Shown: one piece after another, positions 34,341-47,931 of the stretch
How the letters are laid out: each line of letters begins with the position of its first letter
Numbering within the stretch: position 1 is the first letter of the stretch
Origin: Acidobacteriota bacterium
Lineage (GTDB): Bacteria > Acidobacteriota > Terriglobia > Terriglobales > Acidobacteriaceae
DNA: 64,000 nucleotides
Reading direction: 5' to 3'
Assembly: GCA_013285705.1 (NCBI GenBank)
Contig: JABDHA010000008.1
Span: 1-64,000 of the forward strand
Notes under the pieces: model-generated
What the model was told of the DNA's origin: nothing
What the model saw: the letters and a program-made list of their open reading frames with translations, nothing else
The model's database searches: none
Translations under genes and position numbers: made by a program

Positions 34341-37300
34341 CTAGAAATTGAATTTTGCGACAAACTGCACCAGGCGAGGCTCCGCAGTGCTGACGATATG
34401 GCCGAAGTTGGGGTCTTCAACTTGCCCGTCCACCGATGCGGGACCGTAGAACTGCGTATGGTTGAAGGCGTTGAATGCCTCCGCCCGAAAATCCAGCGAT
34501 CTCGCTTCGGCCAGGCGTACAGTTTTTTGTAGCGTCAAATCGAAGTTACTAGTTCCCGGCCCATAGAAGACGCGGCGCTTGGCGTTGCCCAACTGACCGA
34601 TAGCCTCTTCGGGAAATAAGGTCGTATTGAAGGCCGGTCTAGCGTTGCGGCCGTTGTTATTGATCTTGAGCGGGCCGGGCAGGTACTGCGGGGTGTCGAG
34701 TAGATAGTTATTCACGCCGTTGCCCAATGTACCGAGCAGTGAATTGTCGGAATTGTCGTAGAGCGTCACAGGAAAGCCGGTGGCGAAGCGGGTCGTTCCG
34801 GATGCGCTCCAATCAGTGGTTAGACGATTTGACCTGTGCACAACTTTCTCGACAGGCAACGACCACTTATAACTTGCGATGAAAGTGTGTTTCTGGTCCC
34901 ACGCAGAGATAGCACGACTTTGTCTCGAGTTGATTGGATTAAGCTGCTCGCCGATGTTCGATCCCTGATCGATTGATTTCGCATAGGTGTAGCTCAGCAG
35001 GAACTGTGAGCCGTTGTGCCGATAACGAAGGGTCGCTTCAATCGCGTTGTAGCTGGAGTTGGCCACTGACTCGTCGGCTGTGTTCTCGCCGTAATCCGTT
35101 CCCTGGCCGACGCGGGTGCCTTGCACGGTTTGCCCCACGCTGTTGGTATAGGTCGTATCTTCCCCAAAGGGACCGCAGGCGGGGATACTGAGGCACAGAG
35201 CCGGCTTGCCAGTGTTCACTGGAACGACGGCCAGGATGTGGTGTCCCTGGTTGCCGACATAGCTGACAGTCAGCAGCGTACGCGAGGTGATCTCCCGTTG
35301 AATCGAAAACATGTAGTTGTTGATGTACGGGGCACGATTACGGTAATAGAAGAACGGATCAGCCGACAGTGGCACAAAATTCGCCCAATTGATGGAGTTG
35401 TCTGGATGGGACCTTGAGACGTTATGCGGCGGAAATGAAAACGGGAAACGCTGTCCGTTATTGAAGCCGCTGGCAGCAGTTATAAACGGCGTGTCCAGTA
35501 GGGGCGGCCCTGGACTTAGATAGTTATACCCAAAGGGCGGCACAGCGTACATGATGCCGGCCAGAAGTCCCGGAAACTCGGTGTAATAAAGACCGTAGCT
35601 GGCCCGAAGACTGCTCTTGCCGCTGCCTCCGAGGAGCGCCTTAAGAGGTCCGTGTTCAAGCCGCGGCGAATAGGCCAATCCAACCCTCGGAGCAAAGTTT
35701 TTGTAGCTTGTTGGCGCGAGCGTCTTTGGAATTCCCGGGTCACCGGTAACCAACAGCCCAGGCAACGCTCCAGGATAGAGCGTGGACTGGGATCCAGGAA
35801 CGTAGGTCTGCAGTTGGTTGTACTTCTCCCAAAAGGGCATGATCACGTCCCAGCGCAGTCCGGCGTTGATCGTGAGATCGTTTCGGGCGCGCCAGCTGTC
35901 CTGCCCATAGACGCCCAGATAGCGGTTGCGCAAATAAAACGGTTGACCGGAGGACTGCGTGTAGTTGCTTGCAACGCCTATCAGAAGATCGGCATAGGGG
36001 TCACCGGTCTCTGTCCCGTTGATATTGAACGTTCCGTTGAATGTCGCGTTCGGATGTTCATTTACCTGATCGATATGGAATTGTCCGCCAACCTTCAGAG
36101 TATGCGATCCCATCACTCTCGATAGACCGTCGCTCACATAGTATGTGTTGTTGGCCTGTGTCTCATTCGTGATGGGAACACCCATCACGAAGCCGGGAAA
36201 TGTGATATTTTCAACGCCTTCGAACTGCGGGGCCTGCTCTACGATACCCGGCGTACCAATGCCGGTGGTGAAACCTTGCGAGGCCAGACTCACGCCCAGA
36301 CCGCCCCTAGGTTGTCCAATGATGTTGGCGTTGCGAAGATATCCAGCGTGGAACTCATTGACGGTATTTGAGCCGATCACGCTGGTATCGCCGAACGACA
36401 ACAGTTGCGCACGCCCAATGAACAAAGCGTCGAAGCCGGGTATGCTGGCCCCGGCAACCGAGCCCGGATAGGGGTTGTCGAGGTGATAGTCATCGACGAA
36501 GTAATACGCTGATATCTGACCGAAGCGGCTGTTGCCGTCGATGCGGATTGAACCCTTGTTGTCGCGAACAGTCTGTGCAAAGGCCGAGGTTGAATACTGA
36601 CTTGCGCTGACGTTGGGAGATGGAATGTACTGCAACAAATTCTTGCCCGGAGTCGACCACGTGCTTTGCGGAATCACGCCGTCAGGGAAGACCCGGGAAT
36701 ATGGTTCACCGGATATTACCGTGTAACCCAACTTCTGCGTGAGCAGGGATGCCAGATAAGGGCCGCTCACAGAACCGCTGAGGTCGTTGAAGTTGCCGCT
36801 ACGTTGCACAATAGTCGGCACAGAGATGTTGCCGGTTGAAACGCCTTCATTTTTAAGAGTTCCCTGGTAGTCGGCAAAGAAGAAGAGCTTTTCGTGCCTC
36901 AGCGGTCCGCCGATAGTACCGCCAAACTGATTCTGGTTGAATGTCGAACGAGTCGGATCGAAATAACCTCTCGCATCCAGTCCGGTATTCCGGAAGAACT
37001 CGAATGCGTTGCCGTGAAACGAGTTGCCGCCCCGTTTGCTGACGACAGTGACCAAGCCACCGTTGTAGTTGCCGTACTCCGGATCGAAGTTGCTGGTTAT
37101 TACACGGAACTCTTCGATCGAATCGAGATTGGGAATGATCGAGGTGCCTCCGCTCATGTGCTCCTGGACATCGATGCCGTTTACCAGGAAACCATTTGAA
37201 GATTCACGCTGACCGTTGATAGACAGGTTTCCAGCATTCAAGTCACCCGATGGGTCGAGGCTCCCGGTAACGCCCGCCATGATGACGGAGTTCGGCAACA

Positions 37301-37838
37301 GGGTTGAAATCGGCGCTACGCCCGGCTGAATTGCCAACAAGTCCGTGTAGCTTCTTCCATTCAATGGCAGCTCGGTCATTTGTGCACCGGATATGACCTC
37401 ACCAAGGTGGGTCGCGATGCTTTCAACCCCCACGTCGGATACGGCCGAGACTGTTACTGTGTCCGACCTTATCCCGACTGTAAGAATTGCATCCACTTTC
37501 AGAGCCGAGTCTGTATCCACTTGCAGATCCGTCTTTCGCTGCGTCCTGAATCCGTAGGCTGAAATCGTGAGGTTGTAGCGGCCAACAGGAAGATCAGGGA
37601 AGGTATAGAAGCCCTTACTGTCTGAAATGGCTTGATAGACAGCCTGTTGAGCGGTGTTGGCAAGGCTGAGGGCCGCCCCTTGTACGACTGCTCCGCTGGA
37701 GTCCTTAACCATCCCGGCGACACTGCCTCCAACGGCTGCTCGCAGCGGCAAGACGGCAACAAGAAGAAATACAACGGCCAGACTCCATAAGAGCGCGCTC
37801 ACGCAGTTAAATGGCACGATCAACTTCGAAGCAGGCAT
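34341..37838 (-). CDS. TonB-dependent receptor, Oar/CarboxypepD-regulatory type
   Basis: A 1165-residue outer-membrane protein, ATG 37838 with GAGG upstream. Signal anchor about 15-37. Carboxypeptidase-regulatory domain about 38-120 (GMVKDSSGAVVQGAALSLAN, FPDLPVGRYNLTISAYGF). Plug with ELPLNGRSYTDLLAIQPGVA and NGIDVQEHMSGGTS. Barrel with SFHGNAFEFFRNTGLDARGY and C-terminal FRAEAFNAFNHTQFYGPAS, ending in FVAKFNF with the terminal Phe. The same class as 11824-15180, but only moderately similar. Nothing nearby defines its ligand. The sigma relic upstream of the PadR unit is downstream of this gene, so it does not identify a surface-signalling trio. Confidence 0.9.
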   Translation of the reverse strand: MPASKLIVPFNCVSALLWSLAVVFLLVAVLPLRAAVGGSVAGMVKDSSGAVVQGAALSLANTAQQAVYQAISDSKGFYTFPDLPVGRYNLTISAYGFRTQRKTDLQVDTDSALKVDAILTVGIRSDTVTVSAVSDVGVESIATHLGEVISGAQMTELPLNGRSYTDLLAIQPGVAPISTLLPNSVIMAGVTGSLDPSGDLNAGNLSINGQRESSNGFLVNGIDVQEHMSGGTSIIPNLDSIEEFRVITSNFDPEYGNYNGGLVTVVSKRGGNSFHGNAFEFFRNTGLDARGYFDPTRSTFNQNQFGGTIGGPLRHEKLFFFADYQGTLKNEGVSTGNISVPTIVQRSGNFNDLSGSVSGPYLASLLTQKLGYTVISGEPYSRVFPDGVIPQSTWSTPGKNLLQYIPSPNVSASQYSTSAFAQTVRDNKGSIRIDGNSRFGQISAYYFVDDYHLDNPYPGSVAGASIPGFDALFIGRAQLLSFGDTSVIGSNTVNEFHAGYLRNANIIGQPRGGLGVSLASQGFTTGIGTPGIVEQAPQFEGVENITFPGFVMGVPITNETQANNTYYVSDGLSRVMGSHTLKVGGQFHIDQVNEHPNATFNGTFNINGTETGDPYADLLIGVASNYTQSSGQPFYLRNRYLGVYGQDSWRARNDLTINAGLRWDVIMPFWEKYNQLQTYVPGSQSTLYPGALPGLLVTGDPGIPKTLAPTSYKNFAPRVGLAYSPRLEHGPLKALLGGSGKSSLRASYGLYYTEFPGLLAGIMYAVPPFGYNYLSPGPPLLDTPFITAASGFNNGQRFPFSFPPHNVSRSHPDNSINWANFVPLSADPFFYYRNRAPYINNYMFSIQREITSRTLLTVSYVGNQGHHILAVVPVNTGKPALCLSIPACGPFGEDTTYTNSVGQTVQGTRVGQGTDYGENTADESVANSSYNAIEATLRYRHNGSQFLLSYTYAKSIDQGSNIGEQLNPINSRQSRAISAWDQKHTFIASYKWSLPVEKVVHRSNRLTTDWSASGTTRFATGFPVTLYDNSDNSLLGTLGNGVNNYLLDTPQYLPGPLKINNNGRNARPAFNTTLFPEEAIGQLGNAKRRVFYGPGTSNFDLTLQKTVRLAEARSLDFRAEAFNAFNHTQFYGPASVDGQVEDPNFGHIVSTAEPRLVQFVAKFNF

Positions 37839-38168: not shown

Positions 38169-39797
38169 ATGTCAAAACTGAAGTCCGCAGCCGGACTCGT
38201 ATTGAGTCTACTGATCGCTATGCCGCCCGGGGTGTTTGCATCGAGCCATCGGGAAGCACCCATTACCGCACTGGATCACACCGCTGACATCACCGATTTC
38301 TATGCTTTTGTCAGCTACGATCATCCAGATCGCGTCACCTTTGTCCTGAACGTCGACCCATTCCTGCAACCCAGCAATGGGCCAAACTATTTTCCGTTTG
38401 ATCCATCGATTGTGTATCAGATCAAAATCGACAATGATCATGATGCACGGGCGGACGTCATCTTTCAGTTCCGCTTCCAGACTCACATCCTCGATGCCGG
38501 GCTCCCTGTGGGCTACGCAGGAGCGGGCAATGGAGTGAACGCGCCGGCAAACTCGCCAGCACCCATCAAACCCGGTACGCCGATTGTTCCCCCGGCGATC
38601 ACTTCTCTGACCGGAGACGGCGCCGCAGGCCTGAGCCTACAGCAGACATTCTCCGTAAACATGATCAAGGGCGATCGCGACATTGCATTGACGAATACAA
38701 CTGGCAGCCCCCTGATCGCTGTTCCAAGCAACGTTGGCCCGCGCACGATGCCAGATTACAATGCCCTGGCTACGCAGGGCATTTATGACCTGCAAGGACG
38801 AGATGGCGATTCCAATATTCGCGTTTTCGCAGGCACAGCCGCAGATCCTTTCTTCATTGATCTGGGCGCAACCTTCGACAGTCTCAACTACCGCGCCGGC
38901 ACCGGCGTTGAAGCTCTAACTCCTGAGCAGGACGCCGACGACCAGCTCAGTTCGGCGCCGAATTCGGTTGCCGGATTTAACGTCAACACCATCGCGATCG
39001 AGGTGCCGATTAAACTTCTGACTTGCGACGGAGCCCTCCACGCCGCCACTGATCCGAAAGGAACGATCGGTACCTGGGCGACAACATCCAGAACAGAAAT
39101 CACCATTCGCAGATTCGCAAACCCTGCCCTAAACTTTGGCCGCCTGGCTCAGATACAACGCTTTGGCAATCCACTCATCAACGAATTGATCATCGGTACA
39201 GGAAGCAAGGACTTCTGGAGCATGTCAGAGCCGGTGAAAGACATGCAATTCGCTTCGTTCGACCTCGATCCCCTGATCGGAAGAGTGTTCAACGCCGTAT
39301 ACGGGTTCAAGATACCCACTCCACCCCGAACCGATCTTCTGCCGCTGGTGACATATGCCGCACCGATAGCTCCGAAAGGTACTCCAGCCGGGCCGATTGC
39401 TGACCTGATGCGGCTCAACACTGGTGTACCTCCCACTCCGAAGGCGCAGCGCAAGCGGCTGGGTCTGATTGCTGGCGATCCTGCCGGATTCCCAAATGGT
39501 CGCCGTCTCACGGATGATGTCGTCGATATTGTCGAGCGTGTGGGCGTTGGTGGCATTTTGAGTCCCGGCTTCAATGTTGCGCCGAACAACCTGCTCGGCG
39601 ATGGCGTCAACGCTCCCGACGTTCCTCCGCAAGAGATGTTCCCGTATGTTCATTTTGCATACAGTGGACGAAACAGCCGCCATATCAGCCCGGGCGATCC
39701 TACGGGCTGCGGGGATCAGCCAACGTCCTCCAGCATGCAGAACTCCGATGCGCCACCAGCAAACCAGGGTGGGCCTTCGCCATGTCCGGTCGATTAA
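38169..39797 (+). CDS. Secreted DUF4331-family protein
   Basis: A 542-residue exported protein, with a signal peptide (residues 1-25, ending near GVFA). Begins with the DUF4331 signature SSHREAPITALDHTADITDF and continues through YAFVSYDHPDRVTFVLNVDP, GDRDIALTNTTG and a conserved FAGTAADPFFIDLGATFDSL. It ends in a Cys/Pro-rich tail. The family is widespread in environmental bacteria and has no established function; the S-S-H-R-E-A start and several His/Asp positions are suggestive of metal binding (inference). It is the first gene of a three-gene plus-strand cluster with a TPR protein and a nickel/cobalt transporter. A strong hairpin separates it from the next gene. Confidence 0.9.
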   Translation: MSKLKSAAGLVLSLLIAMPPGVFASSHREAPITALDHTADITDFYAFVSYDHPDRVTFVLNVDPFLQPSNGPNYFPFDPSIVYQIKIDNDHDARADVIFQFRFQTHILDAGLPVGYAGAGNGVNAPANSPAPIKPGTPIVPPAITSLTGDGAAGLSLQQTFSVNMIKGDRDIALTNTTGSPLIAVPSNVGPRTMPDYNALATQGIYDLQGRDGDSNIRVFAGTAADPFFIDLGATFDSLNYRAGTGVEALTPEQDADDQLSSAPNSVAGFNVNTIAIEVPIKLLTCDGALHAATDPKGTIGTWATTSRTEITIRRFANPALNFGRLAQIQRFGNPLINELIIGTGSKDFWSMSEPVKDMQFASFDLDPLIGRVFNAVYGFKIPTPPRTDLLPLVTYAAPIAPKGTPAGPIADLMRLNTGVPPTPKAQRKRLGLIAGDPAGFPNGRRLTDDVVDIVERVGVGGILSPGFNVAPNNLLGDGVNAPDVPPQEMFPYVHFAYSGRNSRHISPGDPTGCGDQPTSSSMQNSDAPPANQGGPSPCPVD

Positions 39798-39893: not shown

Positions 39894-42617
39894 ATGAAAT
39901 ATCGGTACGCAATATTTTGTATTCTTGCCGCACTCACCTCCGTCGCCGCGCTCGCCCAACAAACCGTAGCAGGTGCGACGGATCATCCCGGCGTCTCCAA
40001 TGTGGCGGCCGTTCAGAGTGCTACGCCCGCGCAGTTGCGTATCGCGGCGGCCACGCAGCAGCTCAAGTCAGCCCCGAAGAAGGTTCAGGCTTATAACGAG
40101 CTTGCGATCGCTTTTCTGGCGCGAGTTCGCGAGACCGCCGATCCCGGATATTTGAAGGATGCAGACACTGCCCTGGCTCAAGGTCTAAGCCTGAACGCGG
40201 ATGATTTCCAATTGCAGAGAACTCAGGTAGCACTGATGCTGAGCAGGCATCAATATACGCAGGCAAAAGAAAGAGCTACCGTACTCAACCACCGCACGCC
40301 TGACGATGTAATGACCTACGGGTATCTTGCCGAGGCAGACATCGCACTCGGCAACTATCCAGAAGCAGAGTCCAACACCCAGTGGATGCTGAATATGCGA
40401 CCCAACAACATTCCAGGACTCCTGATCGGAGCCAAATTGCGAACGTTATACGGCGATACGCATGGTGCAATCGACTTTCTGAACCTGGCATATTCGGAGA
40501 CCTCGCCGACTGAGGTGGAAGACCTTGCGTGGATTGCCAATCAAATTGCGTCGATCCAGACCGAATCAGGCCAGATTGACGCAGCAGCTCAAACCTTGGA
40601 ACAGTCCCAACAGCTCTTCCCTCATTACCCCTACACCATAGAGAATTTGGCCCGCGTTCGCATGTGTCAGAATCGAGCGAGCGACGCAGTTCAGCTGTTG
40701 CTGCAGGCCACGTCCATCGATAACAACCCGCACGTTCTTTATCAGCTAGCAAAAGCGCAGGAGGCCGCGGGGCAGCCCAAGGAAGCTCGCGCCACCTATG
40801 CGGAGTTCGAGACGTTCGCAAGCGATCCTGAAAGAACAACCGACCAGTCGAGGCTCGACCTCATTTTGATGTACGCCGGAAGTCCTGCCAACGCGTCCAG
40901 TGCATTGAAGCTTGCGATGCAGGAGATTACAGTGCGGCAGGATGTATGGACGCTCGACGCCTATGCCTGGGCTCTCTACGCCAATGCAAAATTCCAGGAC
41001 GCGGACGCCGCGGCGCAGAAGGCCATTGCGGTCGGAATTCAAAACGCTCAGATCTTCGATCACGCCGGTCACCTCGCACAGAAACTGAACCACAGCGTAG
41101 ACGCCACTAAATACTTCCAGCTTTCTCTTCAGTCCAATCCTGAATCTGAGTACGCCGCCGATGCTCTCAAGTCCGCAAGTCTTGGGAAGGCAACAGATGA
41201 GCATGAGCAGACGGTCGCTCAGATCGTGCCTGCTCCAGCGTTGTTGCAGGCCACTGTGGTGCACGATCCTCTGACCGCTGCGGATCGGTCGAATCATAAA
41301 GCCGCCTCGATCAACATTGGAACGGCGACCGTCGCCCCGGTCTTCGCCCCTGTTCCCGAGGCCCTGCTCACACCTCACCCAACTGGCACCGACCATCTTA
41401 TTCAAAGCGCCCAGGCCACTGTCGCTCGCCGTCCGACTGACGCCACAGCGTATGCGGGACTGGGTGCTGCGTATTTCCAGCGCGCGAGAGAGACGGGCGA
41501 CGTAAGTGACTATCAGTTCGCTGAGCAATCCCTTACTAAGTCGCTCGATCTGGTTTCAGCGGATTTTTCAGCTGACGCGGCACTGGGAACGATGGCTGAG
41601 GTCTGCATGGGGGAGCATCGCTTTGCCGACGCGCTCACCTATGCACAGCGAGCACTCTCGCTCGGTACTGGCGATGTCTCGCCATTCGCCATTGTCGGAG
41701 ATGCATACGCCGATATGGGTGAATACGACAAAGCTGGCGTTGCGTATGGCCGACTGACGCCTCGTGACATGACGCTCTCGCCGCGTGCCGCGTATGCGCG
41801 AGACAGTCGAATCTCCTATCTCAAATTCATCGCCGGTGATACCGCCGGGGCGATCTCCCTCATGAAGACAGCCGTCACCGAGGGAGTCGAAGCTCAATTG
41901 CCGAGTGAAAACCTCGCATGGTTGTACTACGAGTTGGGAGAGTATGAAACACAGGTTGGTGACTCCGCTTCCGCCGATGCTGCTTACATTACCGCTCTGA
42001 AGATCCATCCGGGAGACTATCGCGCTTTGGCAGCGTTGGGTAAGCTCAGAGCGAACAATGGCAGATATGCGCAAGCAATCGTGCTCTACGAAAAGGCCAT
42101 TGCCATCGTCCCTATGCCTATCTTCGTGGCGGAGTTGGGAGATCTCTATGCAAGATCTGGAAACCAGGCAGAGGCTCAGAAGCAGTATGCGCTGGTCGAG
42201 TACATTGGACTGCTTGGACACATCAATCAAGTGCTGCACAATCGCGATCTGGCACTCTTCTACGCCGATCATGATATGAAGCTCGCCGAGGCTCTCGACC
42301 TCGCGCAGAAAGAGCTTGAAGTCCGGCATGACGTTTATACCTGGGATGCTCTGGCCTGGGCTCTCTATAAAAATGGCAGGCTGACAGAGGCGGCCCAGGC
42401 AAGTGAGAAAGCCATGCGATTCGGAACACGGGACTCGCTTCTTCTCTTTCACGCCGGGATGATCGCCGAGCGCATGGGACAGCCAGAGCAGGCTCGCAAT
42501 GAACTAAAGGAAGCGCTCCAGATCAACCCGCATTTTCATTTGATCTATGCAAATGCAGCGCAACAGAGACTTGAGGCGTTGGGAGCACAATCCGAATCAA
42601 AGGAAGGCTCTGAATAA
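39894..42617 (+). CDS. Exported TPR-repeat protein of the DUF4331 cluster
   Basis: A 907-residue protein with a signal peptide ending at ALAQQ. It is almost entirely tetratricopeptide repeats in two halves (about 40-430 and 500-890) joined by a linker of low complexity. Near-repeats include VRQDVWTLDAYAWALYANAK (first half) and VRHDVYTWDALAWALYKNGR (second half), so the gene probably arose by internal duplication. The helical repeats usually hold protein partners. In this position it may link the secreted DUF4331 protein with the membrane transporter (inference). The stop TAA is one base before the transporter ATG. Confidence 0.85.
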   Translation: MKYRYAIFCILAALTSVAALAQQTVAGATDHPGVSNVAAVQSATPAQLRIAAATQQLKSAPKKVQAYNELAIAFLARVRETADPGYLKDADTALAQGLSLNADDFQLQRTQVALMLSRHQYTQAKERATVLNHRTPDDVMTYGYLAEADIALGNYPEAESNTQWMLNMRPNNIPGLLIGAKLRTLYGDTHGAIDFLNLAYSETSPTEVEDLAWIANQIASIQTESGQIDAAAQTLEQSQQLFPHYPYTIENLARVRMCQNRASDAVQLLLQATSIDNNPHVLYQLAKAQEAAGQPKEARATYAEFETFASDPERTTDQSRLDLILMYAGSPANASSALKLAMQEITVRQDVWTLDAYAWALYANAKFQDADAAAQKAIAVGIQNAQIFDHAGHLAQKLNHSVDATKYFQLSLQSNPESEYAADALKSASLGKATDEHEQTVAQIVPAPALLQATVVHDPLTAADRSNHKAASINIGTATVAPVFAPVPEALLTPHPTGTDHLIQSAQATVARRPTDATAYAGLGAAYFQRARETGDVSDYQFAEQSLTKSLDLVSADFSADAALGTMAEVCMGEHRFADALTYAQRALSLGTGDVSPFAIVGDAYADMGEYDKAGVAYGRLTPRDMTLSPRAAYARDSRISYLKFIAGDTAGAISLMKTAVTEGVEAQLPSENLAWLYYELGEYETQVGDSASADAAYITALKIHPGDYRALAALGKLRANNGRYAQAIVLYEKAIAIVPMPIFVAELGDLYARSGNQAEAQKQYALVEYIGLLGHINQVLHNRDLALFYADHDMKLAEALDLAQKELEVRHDVYTWDALAWALYKNGRLTEAAQASEKAMRFGTRDSLLLFHAGMIAERMGQPEQARNELKEALQINPHFHLIYANAAQQRLEALGAQSESKEGSE

Positions 42618-42618
42618 T

Positions 42619-45054
42619 ATGCTCTCTAAAAAGTTTGGCAGGCTCTTCACGCTGCTTTTCTTGCTGGGCCTCTGTCGGTTGGCTGCGGCTCATCCCATGG
42701 GCAATTTCAGCGTCAATCATTATTCCAGGATCGATCTGCAGGGCGACCGAATCATCGTCCGGTACTTCATCGATCTGGCAGAGATTCCCACCTATCAGGA
42801 ACTCCAGCAAGGGAACATTGCCGCAACCCCGATGGATCAGAATTCCGCGGCGGTAGTCCGCTACGTGGCTGCCCGCGGCGCAGAACTCGGACACGGTCTC
42901 ATACTCGATATCGATGGCAAACAGATTCCACTGCGTCTGGTCTCGAGCGGAGTCATCTTTCCTCCTGGCGCGGGTGGCCTTCCCACGATGAAGATGGGCT
43001 TCGTTTACGAAGCGATTTACCCATCGGCCCCATCGATCACGGATCGGAAGCATGTAACCCTGCATTATGAGGACAACAACTACCCAGGACACTCCGGATG
43101 GAAGGAGATCATTGCACTGGCTTCTGCCGGCTCTTTGCTCCGTACTTCGGTTCCATCGACGGATCGCAGCGGCGAGTTGAGCAACTATCCGACCGATCTG
43201 CTCACCAGCCCTCCTCAGTGTCTTGAGGCGTCACTATTAGCCGCGCTGCCGCCAGTCGCTGACGCGCAGTCTCACGAAACCTCCAAGCCATTATCGCGGC
43301 ATATAGAGGCTCCGGCGGCCGATATGACATTTCCGCAGAATCATCCCAGCACAGCCGTGAATGCTGAGCCCATACATAAGCACACCGCAACTGTACCTGC
43401 TGCGGCATCACTCGAATCGGCGCAATCTGCATTGGCGCATTCGACTACCGTGCATCTCCAGGCCAATCAACAACAAACGCCGCGCAGCAAATTTACCGAG
43501 CTGATCACCGCCCAGCATCTAAGCGCCTGGTTCCTGTTCACCGCTGCATTCATTGCTATCGGTCTGGGAGGGCTGCACGCGTTGGAGCCTGGCCACGGCA
43601 AAACCATCGTCGCCGCCTATCTTGTGAGCTCTCGCGGCACCGCGCGGCACGCTGTGCTGCTGGGCATAATCGTCAGCGCATCTCATACCGCCGGCGTATT
43701 CGCACTGGGAGCGATCACGTTGTACGCATCACGCTACATCGTGCCCGAGCAACTCTACCCCTGGCTGGGCGCTTTCTCGGGGATCACGATTGCGAGTCTT
43801 GGATGCTACATGCTCATGCGTCGCCTGACCGGCGCGGCCACGGATCACTCTCATGCCCCAGGCGCATCCCATGGTCACTGGATGTTCTGGAAGAAGCCAA
43901 CAGAAGAGCAGATAGAATTCAATCCGGTCGGAAGCAATACGAATTCCGCACAATCTGTAAGCCTGACTCAGCTTTTTACTTTGGGTATCACTGGCGGGAT
44001 CATCCCATGCCCGGCAGCACTGATCGTACTCTTAAGCGCTTTTGCGCTGCATCGGATCGGCCTGGGCTTCTTTCTGATCGTGGCCTTCAGCGTCGGACTT
44101 GCGGCTGTTCTAATTGCGTTCGGCATGTTGATGGTCTACGCGCGCCGCTTCATGACAGGCCTTCAGGTCGACGGTCCGCTCACCAGGCGTTGGCTGCCGG
44201 TCGCGTCCTCCGCATGTATCACTGTCCTCGGCTTGGTCCTGACAATACAGGCCCTCTCAGCCGTGCATCTCGATGTGCACCTGTTTTCCAAAGAGAGACT
44301 TGGACCCATCTTGTTCGTCACGGGTCTGGGCCTGATCTTGGGGATGCGGCATTCCACCGATGCGGATCACGTGGTTGCCATTTCAACCATCGTCACCAGG
44401 CAACGAAGCATCCGCAATGCGGCATTTATTGGTTCCATCTGGGGAATGGGTCACACGATCACGATCTTTATTGTCGGCTCTCTGATCATTCTCTTCGGGG
44501 TAGAGATTCCACCTCGTATCGGGTTATCCATGGAATTCAGCGTCGCCATTATGCTGATTCTCCTCGGCGTTCTCAATCTCACCGGCCTCATGCAGAAGGT
44601 GACCGCCTACTTCACCCCGGCGGCCATCGCAAGTCTAAATCCGGCTGAGAAAGCCGCGGGGCAGGGTGTCGAGATCGCGATAGGCGGCCTGTACCAGAAC
44701 TCGGTTGGCCGTTTAGGTCTGTATCAATGCGTCCGACCGCTGGTAATCGGATTGGTGCATGGGCTCGCGGGATCCGCAGCGGTGGCCTTACTGGTCTTGT
44801 CGACGATTCACAACCCTGTCTGGGCAACCGTATATCTGCTCATCTTCGGCGCTGGAACAATGGTTGGCATGATGTGCATGACTGCGGCCATTGCTTTACC
44901 TCTGGCCTATGCTGGGCATCGCTTTTCCATCCTTAGCCGTTATCTCGGAGTGGCCTCCGGCATGGTCAGTCTTTGTTTCGGATCATTTCTCGTGTATCAA
45001 TTAGGTTTTGTAGGCGGACTATTCACAAGCCATCCACAATGGATACCGCAATAG
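42619..45054 (+). CDS. Fused nickel/cobalt transporter: RcnA-type half plus NiCoT-type half
   Basis: ATG 42619 has an AAGGAAGG site and starts one base after the TPR stop. About 811 residues. Signal peptide 1-24; a periplasmic domain to about 290 with scattered His; then membrane domain 1 with the RcnA/NicO signature HALEPGHGKT (320-329), a His-rich loop DHSHAPGASHGH (409-420) and the P-C-P motif in GGIIPCPAALIVLL; then membrane domain 2 from about 570 with RHSTDADH (577-584), close to the NiCoT signature R-H-A-x-D-A-D-H. Known RcnA proteins export Ni/Co and NiCoT proteins import them, and the two are normally separate. The direction of transport here cannot be read from sequence. Confidence 0.85.
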   Translation: MLSKKFGRLFTLLFLLGLCRLAAAHPMGNFSVNHYSRIDLQGDRIIVRYFIDLAEIPTYQELQQGNIAATPMDQNSAAVVRYVAARGAELGHGLILDIDGKQIPLRLVSSGVIFPPGAGGLPTMKMGFVYEAIYPSAPSITDRKHVTLHYEDNNYPGHSGWKEIIALASAGSLLRTSVPSTDRSGELSNYPTDLLTSPPQCLEASLLAALPPVADAQSHETSKPLSRHIEAPAADMTFPQNHPSTAVNAEPIHKHTATVPAAASLESAQSALAHSTTVHLQANQQQTPRSKFTELITAQHLSAWFLFTAAFIAIGLGGLHALEPGHGKTIVAAYLVSSRGTARHAVLLGIIVSASHTAGVFALGAITLYASRYIVPEQLYPWLGAFSGITIASLGCYMLMRRLTGAATDHSHAPGASHGHWMFWKKPTEEQIEFNPVGSNTNSAQSVSLTQLFTLGITGGIIPCPAALIVLLSAFALHRIGLGFFLIVAFSVGLAAVLIAFGMLMVYARRFMTGLQVDGPLTRRWLPVASSACITVLGLVLTIQALSAVHLDVHLFSKERLGPILFVTGLGLILGMRHSTDADHVVAISTIVTRQRSIRNAAFIGSIWGMGHTITIFIVGSLIILFGVEIPPRIGLSMEFSVAIMLILLGVLNLTGLMQKVTAYFTPAAIASLNPAEKAAGQGVEIAIGGLYQNSVGRLGLYQCVRPLVIGLVHGLAGSAAVALLVLSTIHNPVWATVYLLIFGAGTMVGMMCMTAAIALPLAYAGHRFSILSRYLGVASGMVSLCFGSFLVYQLGFVGGLFTSHPQWIPQ

Positions 45055-46705: not shown

Positions 46706-47758
46706 TCAATTGACCGCGACGGGATCGAGTCGCCGGACGGCAGCTTGATTCAGGGCGGGAGCAAAGTGCGCGTAGCGTCCCGTCATGGCTAGGCTCTGGT
46801 GTCCTGCCAGAGATTGGACAGTACGTAAATCAACCCCAGCCTGCACCAGTCGGGTTATGAAGGTGTGACGAAGGCAGTGCCAAGTGAAGTCCTCGATCTT
46901 GGCTTCTTTTACCGCGCTTTCGAAAGCTTTCTTGATGTCTATGATCGGCCGCTTCTTATATCGATCTGACCGGAAGACCCGGTCGTCATCAGGACGGTTC
47001 TGATACAGATCGTCGATCACCGCGAAGCAGGTTTCATTCATTGTGATCTCCCGCGACCGATTGTTTTTGGGATGGGGAACGATAATCACTTTGCGGCTCA
47101 TGTCTACATCGCTCCATCTCAACCCGAACTGTTCGGACTTCCGTAGTCCGGTGTGCAAAGCAAAGACAAACGCCGGCATGTGCCCAGGACACCGACTTGC
47201 GATCGCCGCTTTGAGGCTAATTTCCTCCTCGGGCCTGAGATACCGTATACGACCGTCCCCTTCATTTCTGTGCTCGACTGACCGGACCGGATTGCGGCTG
47301 ACCTTGTCGTTGCGGAGAGCGAGCTGATAAGCCTTACTCAGTACGGTCTTGTACCGGTTCTTGGTAGCTGGACTCCACCTGGGATGACTGCTGAGCCAGT
47401 CGTCGATTTCTTTGGGTTTCACCGTGTCGGCGGCACGACTGCCCAATTCCTTGATGATCAAATCCATCCGGCCTGTGAAGGTGCGAAGATCCCGCTTGTC
47501 GTGGTCCTTATACCACTGCTTCGCTTCCTCCCCAAGTTCGGAGATGGTGATGGGCCGCTGTCGCAAGTTGCTGGGAAGTTTTATGCCCGCACGGGCTTCC
47601 GCCTTCCGTTTCTGGTAGAGCGCAATCGCGTCGGAACGGCGTCCAACCTTTTCGCGACGAATCTTACCAGTCTCCGTAAAGCGAATCCACCAGATGCCAC
47701 TTCCCGGGTCCCGCTCGTACACCCCTCTGACCTTGGATGGAGTCTTTTTCTCGACCAT
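46706..47758 (-). CDS. Intact tyrosine recombinase / phage-type integrase
   Basis: A 350-residue site-specific recombinase. ATG 47758 is preferred over a TTG 12 bases upstream. N-terminal AP2/SAM-like region (GVYERDPGSGIWWIRFTETG), core-binding helix bundle about 75-165, catalytic domain about 175-345 with all key residues, numbered from the TTG: Arg210 in HTGLRKSE, Lys235, His298 and Arg301 in WHCLRHTF, His324 in LAGHQS and the nucleophile Tyr333 in TGRYAHF. It lies 97 bases from the 3' end of tRNA-Arg(CCT) and reads away from it, as in elements that integrate at tRNA genes. Tandem 12-bp motifs flank it. It is the only recombinase of the window that looks active. Confidence 0.92.
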   Translation of the reverse strand: MVEKKTPSKVRGVYERDPGSGIWWIRFTETGKIRREKVGRRSDAIALYQKRKAEARAGIKLPSNLRQRPITISELGEEAKQWYKDHDKRDLRTFTGRMDLIIKELGSRAADTVKPKEIDDWLSSHPRWSPATKNRYKTVLSKAYQLALRNDKVSRNPVRSVEHRNEGDGRIRYLRPEEEISLKAAIASRCPGHMPAFVFALHTGLRKSEQFGLRWSDVDMSRKVIIVPHPKNNRSREITMNETCFAVIDDLYQNRPDDDRVFRSDRYKKRPIIDIKKAFESAVKEAKIEDFTWHCLRHTFITRLVQAGVDLRTVQSLAGHQSLAMTGRYAHFAPALNQAAVRRLDPVAVN

Positions 47759-47786
47759 AAGCGCACTCAAAGCAGCAGTCTAGCAC

Positions 47787-47854: not shown

Positions 47855-47931
47855 TGGTGACCCCGGGAAGATTCGAACTTCCGACCTGCGGTTTAGGAAA
47901 CCGTTGCTCTATCCACCTGAGCTACGGGGCC
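47855..47931 (-). tRNA. tRNA-Arg (anticodon CCT)
   Basis: Cloverleaf on the minus strand: acceptor GGCCCCG with CGGGGTC (one G-T pair), D-arm GCTCAGGTGGATAGAGC, anticodon loop TTCCTAA (CCT, reading AGG), T-loop with GTTCGAATC, and encoded CCA (47855-47857). It reads AGG, a codon of limited use, and such tRNA-Arg genes are frequent integration targets. Confidence 0.95.

Follow-up and report, generated by a model that had tools for sequence, protein, structure and literature searches.

A single-chain fusion of RcnA-type and UreH-type permeases behind an anglerase-like domain in Acidobacteriaceae

The window, by which we mean the whole 64,000-nucleotide stretch of Acidobacteriota DNA that was analysed, carries on its forward strand an operon of three genes. 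The first encodes a secreted DUF4331 protein of 542 aa (38169..39797; PF14224, E 6.5e-110) and the second a TPR protein of 907 aa (39894..42617), recognised from the ORF list, Pfam and the operons of relatives. Both lie directly upstream of a transporter gene (42619..45054) that closes the operon, the TPR gene ending 1 nt before it. Divergent from the operon, on the reverse strand, lies a gene for a large outer-membrane beta-barrel (34341-37838; PF25183, TonB-receptor-like), of which genome G098 has a 75% identical copy in the same place. A tyrosine-recombinase-like ORF (46706-47770, reverse strand) adjoins a tRNA gene (47858-47931, reverse strand), and together they probably mark the edge of an integrated element. 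Searches with Rfam revealed no nickel or other metal riboswitch at the locus in the window or in three relatives, nor was a metalloregulator gene noticed next to it.

Translation of 42619-45054 gives a protein of 811 aa without an internal stop, in which the translation, homologues and alignment delimit a signal peptide, an anglerase-like domain, an RcnA-type half and a UreH-type half. An alternative upstream start is possible at 42547; the start at 42619 yields a signal peptide ending in ...LAAA|HPMGNF. The motifs from which a preliminary description had deduced a fusion, namely HALEPGHGKT (residues 320-329; 43576..43605), P-C-P (463-465; 44005..44013) and RHSTDADH (577-584; 44347..44370), were all recovered at these positions in the translation, and the proposed joining in one chain of two different Ni/Co permease subfamilies after a periplasmic domain proved real, given the conserved fused ORFs. 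The fusion is present in 19 of 398 genomes of the family Acidobacteriaceae, the window's own included. The other 18, in which the suggested search of further Terriglobia found the same architecture, carry full-length fused homologues with 51-72% identity; in one of them, G380, the match begins at residue 254, inside a 763-aa frame. Eight genomes of other families in the phylum sample have fused ORFs with 37-44% identity, and a contig scan added the isolates Granulicella aggregans and Acidobacteriaceae bacterium KBS 83 as well as carriers in Bryobacterales, Blastocatellia, Pyrinomonadaceae, Chloracidobacterium and an Ignavibacteria MAG; one fused gene sits on a 7.1-Mb contig. By eye, no clear association between the fusion and [NiFe] hydrogenase was apparent in the family, a comparison confounded by kinship and draft genomes. 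The NicO profile (PF03824) scored 52.4 bits for the whole protein, above its gathering score of 27.7; taken by half, it gave 49.4 bits for the RcnA half and 16.9 bits, under the cut-off, for the C half alone. Neither the whole protein nor the N domain, whether searched as a sequence or as a profile, gave a noteworthy match to PDB sequences.

Based on its sequence, we assign the first permease half (residues 286-548; 43474..44262) to the RcnA type, though outside the RcnA subfamily cut-off. NCBIfam, hhalign and AlphaFold together delimit it, with six predicted TM helices in an N-out/C-out arrangement. It aligned with RcnA at an hhalign E of 2e-38 over 248 columns and has the RcnA motifs H-x3-PGH-x-K and PCP, both invariant, while the NCBIfam RcnA model (NF007454 PRK10019) scored 115.9 bits, below its cut-off of 195. 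The His-rich loop ascribed to this half does exist but is thin here, with a median of 4 His in the window's clade compared to 17 in unfused relatives.

The second half had been taken for a NiCoT-type transporter. This identity was rejected, as TIGR00802 scored 16.5 bits against a cut-off of 333.05 and the hhalign match covered only 57 columns (8e-8) around one motif; moreover, a six-helix bundle was predicted, compared to the 8-TM layout of NiCoT. The family that matched instead was UreH. Residues 556-803 (44284..45027), for which NCBIfam, hhalign and AlphaFold predict six TM helices and which lack the usual His-rich loop, aligned with UreH at an hhalign E of 4.7e-56 over 237 columns and, by BLAST, with the Peribacillus protein in the ureH slot (35% over 234 aa, E 4e-44). 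The UreH reference set was picked by gene context and led by this Peribacillus gene, which directly follows ureABCEFGD; its other members were an Afipia gene between hypB and nikR and a Bradyrhizobium gene after hypB. Unfused UreH-type relatives likewise adjoin hyp, lar, ure and nikR genes. We therefore class the second half as UreH-type. Comparison of the His loops indicated that the His-rich loop of this half was lost in the Terriglobia clade (median 0 His, versus 11 in stand-alone relatives) and is retained in the other fused clade.

Aligned with each other, the two halves are remote homologues (hhalign 4e-12). Since the match of each half to its own subfamily is far stronger than this, the chain is a fusion of two subfamilies, and the internal duplication considered earlier is excluded. 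Nor were signature residues missing from the homologues: H320, P324-H326, K328, P463-P465, H578, D583, H584, G611-H612 and H714-G715 were invariant in a 22-sequence alignment of fused proteins. Compared with G098, dN was alike in the N domain, the RcnA half and the UreH half (~0.14-0.15) and reached 0.75 in the linker; dN/dS was ~0.1 in both halves. As six helices come after the periplasmic N domain, the RcnA half would end outside, and the UreH half should also be N-out, C-out, because UreH begins at the helix equivalent to NiCoT TM2. The positively charged loops of both halves are predicted on the cytoplasmic side. Given this shared orientation and these loop charges, no additional helix would be needed to join the modules head to tail, and they would lie parallel.

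The predicted signal peptide (residues 1-24; 42619..42690) has an AxA cleavage site that would make His25 the mature His1, in line with the near-universal HP(M/L)GNF start of the homologues. The periplasmic domain that follows (residues 25-212; 42691..43254) was delimited from the AlphaFold model, Foldseek and the alignment. In the model it forms a beta sandwich, with a pair of helices inserted between the second and third strands (mean pLDDT 79.8 and pTM 0.62 for the chain), and leads into a fast-evolving, low-confidence linker (residues 213-285; 43255..43473) with pLDDT <50 at 219-272. Among 67 sequences (alignment A4), mature H1, G4, D28, A30, E31, G136, W137 and E139 of the domain were invariant. 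The preliminary description had seen no recognised family in this region, which is correct as far as Pfam is concerned, and its sequence profile matched no PDB chain. In predicted structure, however, the domain appears to resemble the Ang-1 anglerase: its top PDB match in Foldseek was 9GCE, the Ang-1 domain of a HupE/UreJ-2 permease, with a probability of 1.00 but an E of only 4.6e-3 and a TMt of 0.45. ZrgA was also among the matches. Ang-1 has the fold of an Ig-like sandwich, its helices lying between the second and third strands; it binds Cu with a Kd of 74 nM and Ni with one of 220 nM, holds copper via its N-terminal histidine and has been proposed to capture metal for uptake (PMC12537917). 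Judged by its model, the N domain is most like this N-terminal-histidine metal-capture domain. PF13795, the HupE/UreJ-2 permease family, was not detected in the fused protein, the permease being of NicO/RcnA type. DUF1007 did not match the N domain; 119 genomes and the controls yielded no sequence of that family. EF-hand-like loops occur in the N domains of some distant fusions, such as L090 (Pfam EF-hand in a few of the 67 members).

In the DUF4331 protein, the PF14224 domain begins exactly at the predicted mature N-terminus, Ser-Ser-His (38241..38249), which an alignment of relatives marks as an ATCUN-type X-X-His. Such a tripeptide (SSH, SDH, ADH or ASH) follows the predicted cleavage site in all 32 DUF4331 relatives (e.g. 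L031, L117, L120, L135 and L193), with A24 and H27 invariant throughout and H27 the sole invariant His. X-X-His of the ATCUN type is described in general as a Cu/Ni-binding form (PMC7701195), and the conserved N-terminus suggests that the DUF4331 protein may bind Cu/Ni in this way. Its AlphaFold fold (pLDDT 77) found no convincing match in the PDB, nor did its sequence; no known enzyme signature was found in it, and DUF4331 was not mentioned in the open-access literature searched. At the TPR position, several relatives have two consecutive genes of ~440 aa (e.g. L081, L082 and L083), and as the 907-aa TPR protein seems to match the two, the operon may contain a second gene fusion. The gene order DUF4331-TPR-(N domain + RcnA) also exists without UreH in cyanobacteria (a Nostoc plasmid), on Streptomyces plasmids and in Armatimonadetes, Thermomicrobiales and Deltaproteobacteria (Myxococcota); the DUF4331-TPR-transporter operon was thus found in many phyla.

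UreH is a separate next gene in Edaphobacter aggregans, Bryobacterales, a Dadabacteria MAG, Actinobacteria MAGs and several Acidobacteriaceae. In the tree of the C half, the Terriglobia fusions group as a single clade (98-99), separately from the other fused clade, and a single clade of all fused rows was rejected in both this tree and that of the RcnA half. Two or more fusion events would be the simplest reading of these sequences; the alternative is one old fusion followed by repeated splitting. At the level of sequence, the fusion, the subfamily of each half, their conservation, the operon and the adjacency or repeated fusion can be taken as established.

Two detached C halves, from genomes G128 and G271, fall within the Terriglobia fused clade of the C-half tree. 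The UreH gene of G128 (L097:7917-8954) lies in a hypB-hypD-hypE operon and retains N-terminal remnants of the RcnA half, which suggests that it was cut from a fused gene and moved to the hydrogenase operon. The UreH-type gene of G271 (L098:8291-9115) lies near larB-larC-larE and is a candidate for importing the nickel used in the nickel-pincer cofactor pathway. In both genomes the hyp and lar neighbours exceed the NCBIfam cut-offs. This placement of detached C halves in hypBDE and larBCE operons strongly supports, by context, an inward transport of nickel by the C half; import is also the direction of the UreH family (PMC2667541). A plasmid-borne 'hoxN' of Streptomyces mirabilis lowered Ni tolerance and raised Cu tolerance (PMC9195940); it was set aside as direct evidence, the gene not having been matched to this fused architecture.

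We propose that the protein is a single-chain capture-and-uptake transporter for a transition metal, most likely nickel and possibly also cobalt or copper, a reading to which we give about an even chance. Following cleavage of the signal peptide, the periplasmic domain would start with a histidine, and this His1 would hold the metal in an Ang-1-like manner together with a second ligand, presumably the invariant Asp28, Glu31 or Glu139. The N domain would then pass the metal to two six-helix NicO-superfamily modules in the same membrane orientation, one RcnA-type and one UreH-type, the latter an importer by family and genomic context. Fusion would fix their stoichiometry at 1:1, and the modules, which are neighbouring genes in relatives, would act as one unit. 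The DUF4331 and TPR proteins would serve as extracytoplasmic partners, the former possibly delivering metal to His1, and the net effect would be uptake of Ni (or Co/Cu). Here we infer the identity of the metal, the inward direction, the relay and the functional coupling of the halves. Recurrence of the same fusion across the phylum makes it probable that the two halves operate as a single machine for metal uptake, and the combination of an N-terminal-His capture domain and a UreH half fits uptake better than export. The main uncertainty of this mechanism is the transport direction of the RcnA-type half, which could export, since RcnA of E. coli does so and a periplasmic protein, RcnB, is its partner in that export. 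The earlier statement that the two families move metal in opposite directions is nevertheless too strong, its sole basis being the E. coli protein. More broadly, and with considerable reserve, we suggest that DUF4331-TPR-anglerase/RcnA, with or without UreH, might form an undescribed multi-phylum relay, in which the X-X-His protein would take Ni/Cu and hand it to the N-terminal-His domain and then to the permease, and which in Acidobacteriota would have been fused more than once to UreH as an obligate single-chain hetero-transporter.

Other readings have to be weighed against uptake. An unlikely one, close to the exchanger or gated pump imagined in the preliminary description, has the UreH half importing Ni, the RcnA half exporting excess Ni/Co and the N domain sensing periplasmic metal and setting the balance. 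The family directions, import for UreH and export for E. coli RcnA, agree with it, as do two complete and equally constrained halves, but it implies a futile cycle within one chain unless gated, for which a gating element was not identified, and the RcnA-type subfamily with this N domain often occurs without UreH and is not known to export. We consider it less probable again that the DUF4331-TPR-RcnA-type core pushes metal to the periplasm and thereby loads the secreted DUF4331 protein, while the UreH half feeds a cytosolic pool. Such a core is indeed widespread without UreH, in all the lineages from cyanobacteria to Myxococcota named above, and carries the invariant X-X-His; yet uptake accounts better for the N-terminal-His capture domain (PMC12537917), and DUF4331 offers neither a convincing PDB match nor a known enzyme signature. 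That one half has ceased to transport and become a regulator or scaffold seems improbable: the loss of the His-rich loop in the Terriglobia clade would make the UreH half the likelier candidate, but its His/Asp signature and all six helices are conserved under strong purifying selection, and the other fused clade has kept the loop. Finally, a frameshift, an assembly chimera or local gene decay has a negligible probability, for although the source genome is of draft quality and fragmented, with 229 contigs and a completeness of 59%, the same fusion is conserved in many independent genomes, the isolates and the 7.1-Mb contig among them, which rules out an artefact.

If the uptake reading is right, the locus provides a testable case of RcnA-type and UreH-type permeases, which are generally regarded as distinct proteins transporting in opposite directions, operating together as a unit. 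It would also extend N-terminal-histidine metal capture to a second permease family and give a first functional lead for DUF4331.

Among known systems, Ang-1/Ang-2 with HupE/UreJ-2 (PF13795; 9GCE; PMC12537917) shares with the fused protein a secreted His1 domain, apparently also the Ig-like sandwich with its helices between the second and third strands, a linker and a permease that the captured metal is proposed to feed. It differs in that the permease here is RcnA-type and followed by a second, UreH-type one, the operon includes DUF4331 and TPR genes, and the N domain has diverged too far in sequence to be matched by a profile. The main text of the anglerase paper names neither RcnA, UreH, DUF4331 nor Acidobacteria (PMC12537917), and neither the three-part chain nor the DUF4331-TPR operon was found in the open-access literature searched. 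The RcnA half resembles the E. coli type in its full-length profile match, its H-x3-PGH-x-K and GG-x2-PCP motifs and a His-containing loop predicted to be cytoplasmic, but has a large N-terminal domain, a shorter His loop, a UreH fusion and 116 bits against 195. UreH, the Ni permease of urease and hydrogenase operons, is matched by the C half over its full length, in H-x4-DH, GH(T/S) and HGLAGS, and in the contexts of unfused relatives, whereas here it is fused behind RcnA and has lost its His-rich loop in the window's clade. With the NiCoT proteins HoxN/NixA (TIGR00802), the C half has in common an RHxxDADH-like motif and distant homology over ~57 columns, but it lacks NiCoT TM1 and the 8-TM layout; true NiCoTs occur separately in the family Acidobacteriaceae. 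ZevA/ZevB, a zinc uptake system of DUF1007 and a NicO-family permease, likewise partners a periplasmic protein with such a permease, and EF-hand-like loops are seen in some N-domain members, but its components are two separate proteins and DUF1007 has no match to the N domain here. Each module therefore resembles something known.
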